A DNA stretch of 64,000 nt from Colwellia sp. Arc7-635 (GTDB lineage: Bacteria; Pseudomonadota; Gammaproteobacteria; Enterobacterales; Alteromonadaceae). Shown in pieces: positions 26,202 through 58,684 of this stretch (the stretch's first letter is position 1; each line of letters opens with the position of its first letter). Location of the stretch: the NCBI RefSeq assembly GCF_003971255.1, contig NZ_CP034660.1, forward strand, positions 2,046,001 to 2,110,000. The letters run 5' to 3'. The notes beneath the pieces were generated by a model. The model was not told the DNA's origin, did no database searches, and was given only the letters and a program-made list of their open reading frames with translations. The position numbers were made by a program, and so were the translations under genes.

Positions 26202-27368
26202 ATGAATTTGCATGAGTATCAAGCGAAACAATTATTCGCTGAATATGGTTTACCAGTTTCTGAAGGTTTCGCTTGCGATACACCTCAGGAAGCGGCAGAA
26301 GCAGCTGATAAAATCGGCGGCAATATGTGGGTTGTTAAAACTCAAGTACACGCGGGCGGCCGTGGTAAAGCTGGCGGTGTTAAGCTAGTTAAAACTAAAC
26401 AAGAAATCAAAGATTTCGCTCAAAACTGGTTAGGTAAGAACTTAGTTACTTACCAAACTGACGAACATGGTCAGCCAGTTGCTAAAATCTTAGTAGAAAG
26501 CTGTACAGATATTGCTAACGAATTATACCTTGGTGCTGTTGTTGACCGCGCAAGTCGTAAAGTAGTATTCATGGCCTCTACTGAAGGCGGTGTTGATATC
26601 GAGAAGATTGCTGAAGAGACTCCTGAGTTAATTCACCAAGCTGAAATCGATCCACTTGTTGGCGCTCAACCTTACCAAGCACGTGAATTAGGCTTCAAGT
26701 TAGGTTTAAACCCAACGCAAATGAAGCAATTTGTTAAGATCTTTTTAGGTCTTGCAAAAATGTTTGAAGATTTCGATTTCGCTTTATTAGAAATCAACCC
26801 GTTAGTAATTACTGACGAAGGTAATCTTCACTGTCTAGATGGCAAAATTGGTATCGATGGTAATGCTTTATACCGTCAACCTAAAATGCGCGCGTTCCAC
26901 GATCCATCTCAAGAAGATGAACGTGAAGCTCATGCAGCACGCTTTGAACTTAACTACGTAGCTTTAGACGGCAACGTTGGTTGTATGGTTAACGGTGCCG
27001 GCCTAGCAATGGGTACAATGGACATCGTAAACTTACACGGCGGCAAGCCAGCTAACTTCCTAGATGTTGGCGGCGGGGCGACTAAAGAGCGTGTTTCTGA
27101 AGCATTCAAAATCATCCTTTCTGACGACAACGTTAAAGCTGTTTTAGTTAACATCTTTGGTGGCATCGTACGTTGTGACATGATTGCTGAAGGTATTATT
27201 GGCGCAGTTAAAGAAGTAGGCGTTAAAGTACCAGTGGTAGTACGTTTAGAAGGTACTAATGCTGAATTAGGTCGTGAAGTTCTTAAAAACTCTGGCTTAG
27301 ATATCATTGCTGCTGAGTCATTAACTGATGCAGCGACTAAAGTTGTAGCAGCTGCGGAGGGCAAATAA
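26202..27368 (+). CDS. sucC: succinyl-CoA synthetase beta subunit
   Basis: The 388-residue ATP-grasp protein starts [12 protein letters not shown], with [16 protein letters not shown] (near 45-60) and [13 protein letters not shown] and [15 protein letters not shown] in the C-terminal half. It makes ATP or GTP from succinyl-CoA with SucD. Its stop overlaps the sucD start (TAATG). It is 171 bases after sucB. Confidence 0.98.
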
Positions 27369-28240
27369 TGTCTGTCTTAATTAACAAAGATACTAAAGTA
27401 ATCTGTCAAGGTTTCACTGGTGGTCAAGGTACATTCCATTCAGAACAAGCACTTGAGTACGGTACACAAATGGTTGGTGGCGTAAGCCCAGGTAAAGGCG
27501 GTCAAACGCATTTAGGCCTTCCAGTATTCAATACAGTACGTGATGCAGTAGAAGCAACTGGCGCAACAGCGACAGTTATCTATGTTCCTGCACCATTTTG
27601 TAAAGATGCAATTTTAGAAGCTATTGATGCAGGCATCGAGCTTATCGTTACTATCACTGAAGGTATTCCAACTTTAGATATGGTTGACGTTAAAGCTAAG
27701 CTTGATCAATCTGGCGTTCGTATGATCGGTCCTAACTGTCCAGGTGTTATTACTCCTGGCGAAACTAAGATTGGTATCATGCCTGGTCACATTCACAAGC
27801 CTGGTAAAGTAGGTATTGTTTCACGTTCTGGTACGCTTACGTACGAAGCCGTTAAACAAACGACTGATGCTGGTTTTGGCCAATCTACTTGTGTAGGTAT
27901 TGGTGGTGACCCTATCCCAGGTACTAACTTCATCGACGTATTGGAAATGTTCCAAAACGATCCACAAACTGAAGCAATCGTAATGATTGGTGAAATTGGT
28001 GGTACTGCTGAAGAAGAAGCTGCGGAATACATCAAAGCACACGTTACTAAACCTGTAGTATCTTACATTGCTGGTGTTACTGCACCAGAAGGTAAGCGTA
28101 TGGGTCACGCTGGCGCGATTATCGCTGGTGGTAAAGGTACAGCTGATGAGAAATTCGCTGCTCTTGAAGCGGCTGGTGTTAAAACTGTACGTTCTTTAGC
28201 GGACATCGGTAAAGCACTTAAAGAGAAAACGGGTTGGTAA
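27368..28240 (+). CDS. sucD: succinyl-CoA synthetase alpha subunit
   Basis: The 290-residue protein has the CoA-binding Rossmann domain ([20 protein letters not shown] in parts), [12 protein letters not shown], and the phospho-histidine in [15 protein letters not shown] (near 243-257). It overlaps sucC by one base and ends the sdh-suc block. A strong terminator follows. Confidence 0.98.
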
Positions 28241-28270: not shown

Positions 28271-28297
28271 AAAAACCCGCTTTTAGCGGGTTTTTTT
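28271..28297 (+). terminator. bidirectional terminator after sucD
   Basis: AAAAACCCGC (28271-28280) and GCGGGTTTTT (28286-28295) pair with loop TTTTA and a T run to 28297. It also lies exactly at the end of the extended minus-strand gene that comes next, so it can end both. Confidence 0.9.
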
Positions 28298-29639
28298 ATA
28301 TACTTAGGATTTTTGAAATTTCTTTAATATTTCTCTGACCGCTTTGGTTGTTAAGAATATTTAACTGAACCAACCTATAGGTAACCATCTGATAATAAAC
28401 ATTAAATTCCTTTTTTATTTTTGAGGAGATATTTCTATACGCGACAATATTATCTCTCTGATTATCAAGATAAATAATGCCATAGTTAGAGTTTCTAATA
28501 TCAAGTTATATTAATAAATTTGCAATGAAAGGTATTAACGTGGCTTTAGGAAGTAGCAACGATGAGGCAAAGGAGTTTGCTTGCCATTCTAACCTTGAAT
28601 TATCAGATTTTTCGATATTTTCCCAACTAATGGAGTTTTCACTATCCACTAAATATGAGTTCGGTTTACTTAGTAACAACTTTCTATGTAATAAAAAGTG
28701 TCCTAACTCATGTGCCAGCGTGAATCTCCATCTAGGGCTATTTAATTCTAAAGTGTTTGAAATAAATATAGCTTTAGAATCAATACTTAGCTTACCGAGA
28801 ATTTTATTTCCATGAACATTCTCTCCCAAATCCTCATCATAAATAAATTCTACATTACTAAATTTTGATAGGTAATCACAAATTGGTGACAGTAATATCT
28901 CGTTCTTATTCTTAACTTTAAAACCAAAATATTTAAGAATATTGTTTACTCGACCATCTATATAACTTTGTCCTATATATGGAACAATTTCTTTGTTTGA
29001 ACTTTTTAAGTGTTGTTGATTATAAGACTTAAAATCATCAGGAATCAGTTTATTAAAAATTTCAGCAAAAGATGAGCTGTAACTTCCGTTAAACGCTGAA
29101 AAAATGAATTCAGCTTTTCCTTCGTATTTTTCGTCCGTAAGAGCCTTCTTTACTTCTTCTATTTGTGCTTTCCTTCTAGATCTCCCTCCGAGAATTTCAG
29201 GGGTTCTTTCTAAAAACCATTGTATTTGGTTGTCAGGTAAAAACCTTGCTAGCGCTATTCCTATACTCGAGGCAAACTCTAGTGCTCCACTTTGAAACCC
29301 CTTTGTAGTAAAAACAATACCTTTAACATTTTTCCCCGAAATTTGGGATAATTTAGATTCAAACTCTTCAATATCATCTACGCCAACCCGCTTATTATAA
29401 TTCTTGCACTCCACAACAACCAATAGTGATAATTTTTCTTTATCTTCTGCATGGACTTCAATTGACATGTCGACTTTTATTTCTTTTTTTCGTTTATATG
29501 AAAAGTAGCCTTTTTGCATAAAGAATTGACATTTTTTTGGGTTTAAAGTGTACTCCCCCGCAAGAATATGACTTTTAAGTAACTTAAATACCTTAGCCTC
29601 AAAAGCGTCTCCTTTTGCAACAGAACTTAAATCTGACAT
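28296..29639 (-). pseudogene. Mrr-like nuclease fused to M78 (ImmA/IrrE) metallopeptidase, one in-frame stop
   Basis: From the ATG at 29639 (good AGGGAAG site) the frame gives 377 residues to a TAA at 28506-28508. Residues 8-140 form a PD-(D/E)xK restriction-endonuclease-like domain: D57 and the E77-C-K79 signature in VVVECKNYNKRVGVDDIEEF. Residues 215-377 form an M78 metallopeptidase: TLAHELGHFLLH (zinc site at 310-314) and RLEWQANSFASSLLLP. Past the TAA the same frame stays open for 69 more codons to a stop at 28296, ending in the region ISSKIKKEFNVYYQMVTYRL, which looks like the C-terminal helix pair that M78 proteins have after the LLP segment. So the natural end is probably 28296, and the TAA is a nonsense change or a read error. 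The 377-residue form keeps both active sites. Confidence 0.7.
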
Positions 29640-29753
29640 TATAACTTCCCTATTGAAACTAGCATTATATAGACTTTCTAACTTTGACATTTCATATAGT
29701 TAAATACAAATAGTAGTTTCTGTTTGTTTTTTTTATTGCATCAAAGGGAAAAT

Positions 29754-30039
29754 TAGACGGACACTCACTCTAAATTAATGGTTCGGAGCTTGTTTATTGG
29801 TTTGGCGTCGGGGTGCCGACGACACCCAGAGGGAGGCTATCGCCGGCCTCCCTCTGGACTCCCTCGGCGCTACTGCATTAAACTTGTTTCCTCCATGACG
29901 TCTAATATTCTTCGACGTACCAGTGCTGATGGCACGTCCGTGTGCCAACAGCACTTTCACTGGCATCCATGCCAGTGATATGTGAATATTAGCCATCATT
30001 CCGGAGTTTAATGAAGCAGACTTGGAGTTTGGTTTATCT
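29754..30039 (+). repeat. repeat element A1
   Basis: About 286 bases. Hairpin I: GTCGG/CCGAC (29807-29811 and 29816-29820) with GGTG loop. Hairpin II: CCAGAGGGAGGC/GCCTCCCTCTGG (29826-29837 and 29846-29857), perfect. A long arm: CATTAAACT (29876-29884) with AGTTTAATG (30005-30013), CTAATATTC (29902-29910) with GAATATTAG (29984-29992). Inside it: GTGCTG/CAGCAC with inner GGCAC/GTGCC (29923-29954) and TCACTGGCAT/ATGCCAGTGA (29957-29978). Confidence 0.8.
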
Positions 30040-30100
30040 GTAGAGTTTATTCTTTAATATCTCAATAAACCGATTTGCTAAAGAACTACACCATCAAACA

Positions 30101-30400
30101 TTAAACGGACACCCATTCTAAATTGATCGGCTTGGAATTTATTTATCGGTTTGGCGTCGGGGTGCCGACGACACCCAGAGGGAGGCTATCGCCGGCCTCT
30201 CTCTGGACTCCCTCGGCGCTACTGCATTAAACTTGTTTCCTTCATGACGTCTAATATTCTTCGACGTACCAGTGCTGATGGCACATCCGTGTGCCAACAG
30301 CACTTTCACTGGCATCCATGCCAGTGATACGTGAATATTAGCCATCATTCCGGAGTTTAATGAAGCAGACTTGGTGTTTGATTTATCGTTCGTAATTCTC
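30101..30400 (+). repeat. repeat element A2
   Basis: Nearly identical to A1 through the whole fold, with a few substitutions that keep pairing or make G-T pairs (CCTCTCTCTGG in the 3' arm of hairpin II). Its head GGACACCCATTCTAAATTGA is shared with A3. Confidence 0.8.
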
Positions 30401-30423
30401 CTTTTGCTTATTTAGAAAACAAA

Positions 30424-30800
30424 CATTAAACGGACACCCATTCTAAATTGATCGGCTTGGAATTTATTTATCGGTTTGGCGTCGGGGTGCCAACAACACC
30501 CAAAAAAGAGAGGAGAGACTAGCGCCGCTCATACTTCTTTGGCTCTGGACTCCTTCGGCGCTGCTGCATTAAACGTACTTCCTTCATGAAATCTAATATT
30601 CTTCGACGTACCTGTGCTGATGGCACTGCGCTCCTTGCCATCCATGGCATCGCGCTTTACCGTTCATCCTGAACATAATCCATGCACTAGAGCACTTTCA
30701 CTGGCATTCATGCCAGTGATACGTGAATATTAGCCATCATTCCGGAGTTTAATGAAGCAGACTTGGTGTTTGTTTCATCGTTCGTAATTCTTCTCAGTGG
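30424..30800 (+). repeat. repeat element A3
   Basis: Same head and long arm as A1 and A2, but hairpin II is replaced by CCAAAAAAGAGAG paired loosely with CTTCTTTGG, and the first inner hairpin is enlarged by about 60 bases that contain GCCAT/ATGGC and GTTCA/TGAAC hairpins of their own. The outer pairs of that arm remain. Confidence 0.75.
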
Positions 30801-30809
30801 TTTAGCTTT

Positions 30810-31099
30810 AACAACTGTTACAGCGATCTCTAAATCCCATCACAGCAGCGGAAACTGAATTTAGATCAGTGCGATGTTTATCGGAGCCATGGATGGCGCA
30901 GACTGCCGTGTGAAGGGACGATTTTCGGCAAGAATAAACATTGAACCTAAATTTAGTTGGAGTGTTTTGCTGTGCAGGGCGCCATGGGGAGTCCAGAGGG
31001 GCTTTTGGCGTGTAACGCCCCTCTGGGTGTTGTCGCCACCGCGACGCCAAGCAGAAAAATTAAACTCCAAGCTATTCAATTTATAAAACTAGATCCCAC
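30810..31099 (-). repeat. repeat element B1 (inverted)
   Basis: Read on the minus strand it starts with GCTTGGAGTTTAA and GGCGTCG. Hairpin I is GTCGC/GCGAC (plus strand 31032-31045), hairpin II is CCAGAGGGGC/GCCCCTCTGG (30993-31002 and 31017-31026). The long arm is different in sequence from A: ACTAAATTTAG with CTAAATTCAGT and ATGTTTAT with ATAAACAT enclose GCCG/CGGC and GCCAT/ATGGC hairpins. The layout matches A. Confidence 0.75.
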
Positions 31100-31109
31100 T
31101 TATTCTAGT

Positions 31110-31480
31110 ATTAGAGGGACACCGACTCTAACTTAACGGCTTGGAATTTGTTTTACTGGTTTGGCGTCGGGGTGCCGACAACACCCAAAAAAGAGAGGGG
31201 AGACTAGCGCCGCTCATACTTCTTTGGCTTTGGACTCTCTCGGCGCTACTACATTAAACTTGTTTCCTCCATGACGTCTAATATTCTTTGACGTACCAGT
31301 GCTGATGGCACTGCGCTCCTTGCCATCCATGGCATCGCGCTTTACCGTTCATCCTGAACATAACCCATGCACTACAGCTCTTTCACTGGCATCCATGCCA
31401 GTGATACGTGAATATTGGTTATCATTCCGGAGTTTAATGAAGCAGACTTGGTGTTTGTTTCAACGAGTGTAATCCTCCTT
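31110..31480 (+). repeat. repeat element A4
   Basis: Close to A3, with the same enlarged inner arm and the CCAAAAAAGAGAG form of hairpin II. Hairpin I is GTCGG/CCGAC. Its head faces the head of B1. Confidence 0.75.
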
Positions 31481-31497
31481 AGGTGTATATTTATATC

Positions 31498-31828
31498 AAT
31501 TATTTCAACGATCACTAGATCCCATCTCAGCAACGGAAACTTAATTTAGATAAGTGCGATGTTTATCGGAGCCATGGCCGTTCCTAAGCATCCATGCCTT
31601 CACGGCATTAGTGCGTCCATGCACGTCGATGGCGCAGACTGCCGTGTGAAGGGACGATTTTCGGCAAGAATAAACATTGAACCTAAATTTAGTTGGAGTG
31701 TTTTGCTGTGTAGGGCACAGTGGGGGATGCAAGGGGGAGATCTGTGTCTATCTCCCCCTTGCGTGTAGTCGCCACCGCGACGCCAAGCAGAGATTAAAAC
31801 TCCAAGCGGTTGAGTTATAGAACAAATA
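31498..31828 (-). repeat. repeat element B2 (inverted)
   Basis: Close to B1 but with a new hairpin II, GCAAGGGGGAGAT/ATCTCCCCCTTGC (31729-31741 and 31750-31762), a perfect 13-bp stem that shares little sequence with B1. The second inner hairpin is enlarged by about 50 bases. Hairpin I is GTCGC/GCGAC (31769-31782). Confidence 0.75.
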
Positions 31829-31830
31829 AA

Positions 31831-31970
31831 TTAGGCTGACACTCACTCTCTAAATTGACATGCTTGGAGCTTATTTATCCGTTCGGCATCGGATTACTGA
31901 CAACACCCAAAGGGTGGTTGACTGGTCGTTTCTTTTGCTGAGTTGTTGCCATTGCAACAGGAAACATACC
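31831..31970 (+). repeat. degenerate repeat element A5
   Basis: Has the A-type head (CTGACACTCACTCT, GCTTGGAGCTTATTTAT, then a GACAACACCCAAAGGGTGG part) but the hairpin I arms are decayed and the long arm is missing. It marks the right end of the array. Confidence 0.55.
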
Positions 31971-32009
31971 AATATATAGGCATTCATTACTAATTTTTAA
32001 ACAAAAAAA

Positions 32010-32031
32010 AGCCACATAATATTATGTGGCT
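32010..32031 (-). terminator. terminator of the DUF3718-like gene
   Basis: AGCCACATAAT (32010-32020) and ATTATGTGGCT (32021-32031) are perfect complements; on the minus strand a T run follows. It lies 45 bases past the stop of the gene at 32077. Confidence 0.85.
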
Positions 32032-32076
32032 AAAATAACTTTTTGTTGGAAAATAGAAGCTTTAAATATTCATTAA

Positions 32077-32514
32077 CTAGGTGTTGTTGTATTGCTTAAT
32101 GAATCTGTAAATACTTTTACCATTACATGTCACTTGATTAACGTTGAAGTTAACTGTGTTTCTAACAGAGTTAATGCCTGACTTTACTGCTTGTGCACAA
32201 ATTTGTGACGCAGAATTTTTATTAGCAGGTATAACTAAAAACTTTTTAGCTGATACATTATTCACTTTTTTTGCTTCAACTTTAACTTTGTAATTTTTAG
32301 CAAATGATTCGATGCTTTGACCATTACAGTTAATATCATAATATGATTTTTCGTGTGATTTTCTTACTACTGACTTTAAGCCATTTTTTGCTGCTGATAC
32401 ACATAAGCTACTTGCAACTGAATTATCGGCTGTTACAAATTTAATATTTGTATTTGACGCTGACGCTGTTGCTGCAGTTAAAACCAAAGTTAATGTTATT
32501 AATAAATTTTTCAT
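32077..32514 (-). CDS. secreted protein with two DUF3718-like repeats
   Basis: The 145-residue protein has a signal peptide (MKNLLITLTLVLTAATASAS). The mature part holds two similar units: NSVASSLCVSAAKNGLKSV...INCNGQSIESFAKNY and NSASQICAQAVKSGINSV...VTCNGKSIYRFIKQY. Each has one Cys in the first helix and a CNG motif at the end, suggesting one disulfide per unit. The same pattern is in the protein at 58685, which I place in DUF3718. Function is unknown; location is periplasm or outside. The gene has its own terminator. Confidence 0.7.
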   Translation of the reverse strand: MKNLLITLTLVLTAATASASNTNIKFVTADNSVASSLCVSAAKNGLKSVVRKSHEKSYYDINCNGQSIESFAKNYKVKVEAKKVNNVSAKKFLVIPANKNSASQICAQAVKSGINSVRNTVNFNVNQVTCNGKSIYRFIKQYNNT

Positions 32515-58359: not shown

Positions 58360-58684
58360 GGCTGACCTTTAAAGGCTAAATGCAAAAAAATGATTATAAC
58401 TGAGTTATTTAACTATGTCCTGTGCTCTATTGCTTATTACACATCAAGTAAAGGCAAGGGAGGGTATTTTCGTTTGTTACTATTTGAATTCAATATTTAT
58501 TTAACCTTGTTTAACTTATTTGTCTCTGTATAATGCGCATCCAGCAGAAACGGCAAGATACTTGAAAGGGTATTACGCAAAACTACCGATCTAAGGGTTT
58601 TACCTATGATAGCGGGGTTTCCAACGCGATTTTAGTATCGATAGTTCGTTTCATTAGTTTTATTTTATTGATATTAAGGTCACC
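58360..58684. other. intergenic stretch before the DUF3718 gene
   Basis: 325 bases between divergent genes; the promoters lie here. No gene or clear structure seen. Confidence 0.4.

Follow-up and report, generated by a model that had tools for sequence, protein, structure and literature searches.

Core-gene defence hotspots are sites at which variable candidate defence genes sit between conserved genes, and integrons place single genes, as cassettes, beside structured attC sites. REP sequences and REPINs are palindromic intergenic repeats of 20-40 bp that occur as inverted pairs and in clusters; a common motif links them to RAYT (TnpA-REP), a Y1 (HUH) transposase whose gene, tnpA-REP, is flanked by copies. 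MITEs are non-coding, carry terminal inverted repeats and have a related autonomous element. The repeats of TIRYT/TIRtron have the consensus GGGGWSAS, are associated with a Y1 transposase and form dimers or clusters (PMC3733652). In a large survey, no REP-like sequences were found for TnpA-Y1 subclasses 2.1 and 2.3 (PMC6006769). At the RNA level, CsrA binding has been proposed from motifs for the TwoAYGGAY family (PMC4333381), and GGA loops are a CsrA-type feature (PMC4333381, PMC11882849).

Here, we analysed an array of folded repeats of Colwellia sp. Arc7-635, located in a window of 64,000 nucleotides (the whole stretch of DNA under analysis). Like REP sequences, its A and B elements are intergenic and palindromic and form inverted pairs and clusters. 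However, A/B units measure hundreds of bp and contain several hairpins, and the transposase genes are flanked by the end motif without the A/B cores. Moreover, by eye, the GT[AG]G foot of REP is not found, the ends being of the GGACACYCAYTCTAA or GGGGTCAG types and the heads GTCGC-GGTG-GCGAC. A GGGGWSAS-type motif, a Y1 transposase and the grouping in dimers or clusters recall TIRYT (PMC3733652), but the motif here precedes a large structured unit, and that of the window array is of the GGACAC type. The heads are inverted repeats, as in MITEs, whereas the transposase loci have only the motif in common with the units. As in integrons, single genes adjoin structured sites; the A/B sequence is nevertheless unlike the repeats of the strain's own integron, whose integrase lies far from the sucD locus. 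The slot downstream of sucD resembles core-gene hotspots in that conserved genes enclose candidate defence genes that vary, and differs from them by usually holding a single gene, immediately after the sucD terminator, with A/B repeats as a border. Finally, the minus strands of A1 and A2 pass the TwoAYGGAY gathering score and display two GGA loops, but five of the seven elements fall short of E 1, and the elements are arrayed parts of an inverted A/B unit.

Organization of the array

A repeat search, an alignment and profiles delimit a cluster at about 29743-31970, with A1-A4 and the remnant A5 on the plus strand and B1 and B2 on the minus strand. The order is A A A B A B A, without strict alternation. 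The features of the locus are as follows (window positions):

27368-28240, plus: sucD, the conserved gene to the left of the slot (ORF; adjoins arrays in relatives)
28271-28296, strand not given: sucD terminator AAAAACCCGC..GCGGGTTTTTT, bordering the cargo slot on its left (by eye; absent from the terminator scan list)
28506-29690, minus: cargo, a candidate defence gene for an Mrr-type nuclease plus M78 peptidase (Pfam; PADLOC capP, RmrA, mREase_IV)
29743-30087, plus: element A1
29759-29773 (genome 2075759-2075773), plus: A1 end motif GGACACTCACTCTAA (motif search)
29867-30022, minus: TwoAYGGAY match inside A1 (Rfam covariance search)
30091-30422, plus: element A2
30107-30121, plus: A2 end motif GGACACCCATTCTAA (motif search)
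30237-30355, minus: TwoAYGGAY match inside A2 (Rfam covariance search)
30416-30828, plus: element A3
30432-30446, plus: A3 end motif GGACACCCATTCTAA (motif search)
30800-31106, minus: element B1, forming one A+B- unit with A3
31101-31514, plus: element A4
31117-31131, plus: A4 end motif, one mismatch (motif search)
31491-31834, minus: element B2, forming a second A+B- unit with A4
31828-31970, plus: A5, truncated or decayed A element (matched by the profile as far as 31917)
32010-32031, minus: terminator stem beside a DUF3718 gene, right border (sequence, scan, Pfam)

The preliminary description had reported seven folded copies in both orientations, and these analyses upheld the location of the array and the strands of the copies. 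The seven are present; the basic unit is, however, the inverted pair A+B-, and they do not stand as independent basic elements. Direct repeats at spacings of 685 and 735-736 bp bear out the proposed duplication of one unit as A3+B1 and A4+B2, and the alignment agrees with the earlier observation that inverted copies have a common head and layout with differing arms, a pattern that holds for all copies. The repeat search also returned the heads as an inverted-repeat pair (I2) of 58 nt with 76% identity. ORFs inside the array are small (the longest among those listed has 80 aa) and follow the repeats; the preliminary description had seen no plausible protein frame. The folded character exceeds chance: none of 100 shuffles was as good as the A2 minus strand folded as RNA (z -6.25), the A2 plus strand folded as DNA (z -7.78) or the B2 plus strand folded as RNA (z -4.27). 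When the genome was searched at the DNA level with A2, no match was found beyond the array.

Distribution of the repeats in relatives

An A element (plus) followed by a B element (minus) makes a unit of some 320-690 bp; both outer ends carry a hairpin head of the GTCGC-GGTG-GCGAC type, and branched arms lie inside. In most genera, the head hairpin marks an abrupt start of the conserved portion of A; Colwellia-type copies, including those of the window, have an additional stretch of ~50 bp bearing the GGACAC motif. In other Colwellia species, single A+B- units lie at scattered intergenic sites with differing neighbours; across the Colwellia family, units also occur in arrays. Many copies are truncated or decayed.

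A2-like DNA was detected in 35 of 196 genomes of the family, the strain's own included; in 24 of the 35, a copy lies downstream of sucD at a distance of no more than a few kb (manual comparison of two genome lists, with G064 counted from its segment). TwoAYGGAY matched 23/60 genomes searched at E 0.001 (own included) and 18/60 above the cut-off, and none of 14 control genomes. The B-end pattern retrieved 45 stretches from the GTDB contig collection, 43 of them titled Colwellia or Cognaticolwellia; the other two are a gammaproteobacterial stretch with A and B and an Anaerolineales stretch without A/B matches. We also ran A, B and head profiles on 53 sucD-downstream segments (own included), calling A or B at a score over 25. 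Many of these segments were picked because their genome had matches, so they are not a random sample; A/B elements were present in 34 and absent from 19. Apart from head cross-matches, the arrays read A plus and B minus relative to sucD, and the first A mostly lies 1.0-1.4 kb from the segment start. One locus (L112) retains just a B- remnant, near the terminator.

A phage or plasmid origin was considered and rejected: no phage record matched the unit L079, and two Pseudoalteromonas plasmid records cover only 12-14% of it.

Folding and RNA-level signals

On the minus strand, A1 (54.1 bits) and A2 (57.5 bits) match the Rfam family RF01731, TwoAYGGAY, above its gathering score of 43. The remaining five elements do not reach E 1 for this family, and no other Rfam family matched 29600-32100 at E 1. 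The A1 and A2 alignments contain two AYGGAY hairpin loops, AUGGAU plus ACGGAU or ACGGAC. The GGA loops are strand-specific: of 111 perfect hairpins on the A minus strand (67 elements), 80 carry GGA within the loop or next to it, while TCC occurs in none, compared with 25 and 32, respectively, of 1007 hairpins in control windows. In B elements, 4 of only 12 perfect hairpins have GGA.

Stems covary strongly in the A alignment. In the A core helices (44 sequences; helices chosen by eye), G-U exceeds A-C on the minus strand by 102 to 57. This bias is weaker than that of RNase P of the relatives in its native structure (81 to 17; Fisher p 0.0017), and one helix accounts for most of it (48 to 8). 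The ratio of 102:57 is thus intermediate, and the RNA reading is possible. A purely DNA-level pairing had been considered and was withdrawn, as minimum-energy-fold wobble tests proved blind to the bias in the RNase P control too, whose loci were in contig orientation (17 of 30 needed flipping); with the orientation corrected, the energy fold gave only 150:106 for RNase P. A crude scan lists no promoter- or terminator-like site within the array, such as a transcript of the CsrB type would have.

End motifs and Y1 transposases

The pattern GGACACYCAYTCTAA, present at A1-A4, has 79 sites in the genome at up to two mismatches, counting those of the array; the reversed pattern, used as a control, has 17. 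Exact sites concentrate at the array and around copies of a gene for a 325-aa transposase: four copies, one of them broken, are accompanied by the motif facing inward, and by manual count, of the 17 exact sites that do not belong to the array, 9 are no more than 1 kb away from such a copy. The protein has NHYH and YVDLNP motifs (three sequences of this genome) and gives a partial match, below cutoff, to NCBIfam REP_Tyr_transpos (E 1.4e-10). It had no Pfam match at E 0.001; PF01797 found nothing in the genome, and a PDB sequence search gave no match at E 1. By its sequence features, this transposase, as distinct from the array, fits TnpA-Y1 subclass 2.3 of Alteromonadales in the table of PMC6006769. 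Matches to it occur in 43/98 genomes of the family, with 11 in the strain's own. The GGACAC motif flanks 5 of the 30 loci fetched for such matches and 0 of 28 Pfam Y1 loci. A second motif, GGGTCAGATACACATTAA, flanks four of the 28 Pfam Y1 loci (L238-L241), with other GGGGTCAGA forms at five more, and bounds the single element L072 on both sides; judged on its letters, it fits the TIRYT consensus GGGGWSAS (PMC3733652). A term search of PMC2817692 for GGAC and Colwellia found no mention.

Of 186 heads (taken from both strands, with some near-duplicates remaining), 41 have one or other motif in the 110 bp upstream, as compared with a mean of 1.8 and a maximum of 6 in shuffles, 23/3720 random windows and 8/186 on the other strand of the same stretches. 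GGGGYCAGR at up to one mismatch is present at 28/186 heads and does not occur in the window's own array. With no motif within 110 bp upstream of 145/186 heads, and some near-duplicates left in the set, the end motif may be a neighbour of the unit and not an integral end. No clear copy was seen at the right ends of B, and transposase loci gave weak, motif-only matches to A and B, without the cores.

Empty sites were sought for two single units. The L079 unit (G146), whose B end abuts the terminator of an amidohydrolase gene, is absent beside the same gene in a sister (L151), with the right flank alone aligned, so that the absence is one-sided. For L072, the downstream regions of 14 other genomes were too divergent to place boundaries.

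Elsewhere in this genome, the ORFs beside the integron integrase include another Y1 transposase of this kind (L346 2899-3897), and an IS110-family transposase lies near a GGACAC motif cluster and a Y1 transposase (L259 364-1518).

The slot downstream of sucD

The placement of an array downstream of the sucD terminator, beside a variable cargo gene, recurs across genera. Usually, one species-variable cargo gene separates the terminator from the first A, starting directly after the terminator's T-run, where no common end motif is found. The terminator is of the CCCGC..GCGGG type in most array-bearing species (L092 is an exception) and also in some array-lacking ones (L101, L109). There is no cargo ORF in L084, L096 and L112, and L097 has a single ORF of 67 aa. 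Cargo ORFs of at least 90 aa are present in 30 loci; the leading cargo gene is convergent with sucD in 23 of them and codirectional in 7.

Cargo genes are largely unrelated among genomes, and the cargo protein of Arc7-635 has no homolog in the remaining sucD segments. The types include Mrr plus M78 (own), CAP12-TIR, TIR, DUF2971/PDC-S31, FRG/PDC-S15, PDC-S42, DUF4062, PIN, ParE, Bro-N and unknowns. When one protein per locus was compared with PADLOC (28 loci; cargo of L111 and L120 left out), 16 of 28 matched known or candidate defence models at E 0.001, many of these models being candidates unproven as defences, and 12 had no match. Among the first genes after sucD in array-lacking segments (the first of at least 90 aa or one close by, taken from 10 of the 19), a single one of 10 matched, an HTH protein. 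Away from sucD, the arrays L069 and L082 adjoin KAP-NTPase genes matching PDC-S20; the other genes adjoining such arrays (AcrB, amidohydrolase, HAD, response regulator) do not resemble defence genes.

In L069 (450-4978) and L082 (6128-10828), the KAP NTPase gene lies beside one for a protein of 961-975 aa at the A/B array, perhaps forming a two-gene defence system. In another family, L083 (1266-1836; G045) has two TwoAYGGAY matches, flanked by a pnp-like gene and by a gene of 287 aa; this site is perhaps a second slot of the sucD kind.

Interpretation of the array

The repeat family is lineage-wide and was only partly recognised before. The array had been called undescribed; for A1 and A2 this is corrected by RF01731, and we found no description of the arrays in the open-licence literature, among the matches listed and as far as their text was accessible. 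Copies and TwoAYGGAY matches in relatives show that neither the repeats nor their fold are peculiar to this strain.

A mobile origin of the repeat family is plausible. We estimate at about 0.45 the probability that the array represents a non-autonomous element of large size, REPIN/TIR-like, which TnpA-Y1 transposases move and which is clustered at a defence-gene hotspot, a reading in which we infer transposition from sequence comparison. Units would spread as single-stranded DNA via subclass 2.3-like and TIRYT-like members of the TnpA-REP superfamily of Y1 (HUH) transposases, the flanking motifs of which recur at some unit ends. The array would have been built by repeated events or unequal recombination, and the repeats, with conserved sucD, would offer flanking homology for swapping the lone cargo gene, in many cases a candidate for defence. 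Scattered single A+B- units, the constant A plus/B minus orientation relative to sucD, the excess of motifs at heads over shuffles the motifs flanking Y1 genes and the PADLOC contrast (16/28 against 1/10) support this reading. It is weakened by the 145 heads without motif, the B right ends, the transposase loci without cores, the low frequency of GGACAC at these loci, the one-sided L079 comparison and the strand-specific GGA loops, which mobility alone does not explain. The cargo beside most non-sucD arrays, which is not defence-like, also speaks against it.

Three origins had been suggested initially: a structured-RNA family, an element mobilised as single strand and recombinase sites. The second is the best supported, by motif-bearing heads and scattered units. 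The first gains real support from TwoAYGGAY and the GGA loops, with transcription presumed. In this RNA explanation, A minus-strand and B plus-strand transcripts would bind CsrA, their GGA loops acting as a sponge or as a leader for the convergent cargo gene. The match of A1 and A2 to a family with proposed CsrA binding (PMC4333381), the loop bias, the covarying stems, the G-U excess and the 23 convergent cargo genes speak for it; the comparison with RNase P and the dependence on one helix, the scarcity of GGA hairpins in B, the crude scan, the seven codirectional cargo genes and the transposase-type ends weigh against it, and we regard it as possible but rather unlikely. An RNA role and a mobile-DNA role can go together. 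The repeats may also be passive now, an old repeat multiplied by slippage and recombination and retained, without a transposase, as homology for gene exchange beside sucD. Decayed copies, the identical place in many genera, cargo directly after the terminator without a common end motif and the majority of motif-less heads would be in line with this; single units with differing neighbours in several species suggest past mobility instead, and we consider a passive origin unlikely.

Recombinase sites found no positive evidence. An integron-like system, with A/B units as sites at which a site-specific recombinase loads single genes, would agree with single cargo genes beside structured sites, sometimes between units (L078, L070), with the TIGR02249 integron integrase found above cut-off in 15/17 genomes of the genus and with an integrase gene located in the slot of G001. 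However, the strain's own integron is ~0.78 Mb from the array, and by eye its intercassette repeats resemble ordinary attC and not A/B; moreover, the 3' end of convergent cargo lacks an A/B unit. In the own segment, a crude attC scan came up empty, but as it also missed the sites of the own integron it carries no weight. The integrase gene in the sucD slot of G001 seems to be divided between two contig ends (L344 125-757, L345 65-427); small ORFs, most of them on the plus strand, come next, and then an A/B unit. This indicates that the slot accepts differing kinds of cargo; it does not make A/B part of an integron, and we hold the integron-like explanation to be highly improbable.

If the transposition reading is correct, the units would be a candidate substrate for Y1 transposase subclasses reported without a REP partner (PMC6006769); TwoAYGGAY, a curated orphan RNA family, would become linked to a mobile element; and the recurrent single-gene candidate-defence slot behind sucD could be mined for new antiviral genes. 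A bolder and quite doubtful version would have A/B as natural single-stranded substrates of TnpA-Y1 2.3 and 2.1, the arrays as terminator docking sites exchanging single defence genes without an integron, and the GGA-loop RNA as a tie between the locus and the Csr system.

Other structured elements in the window

Two further RNA elements were detected on the plus strand of the window, a c-di-GMP-I riboswitch at 58542-58625 (68 bits) and a Ribosomal S15 leader at 661-782, with a CATCCATG motif nearby at 863.
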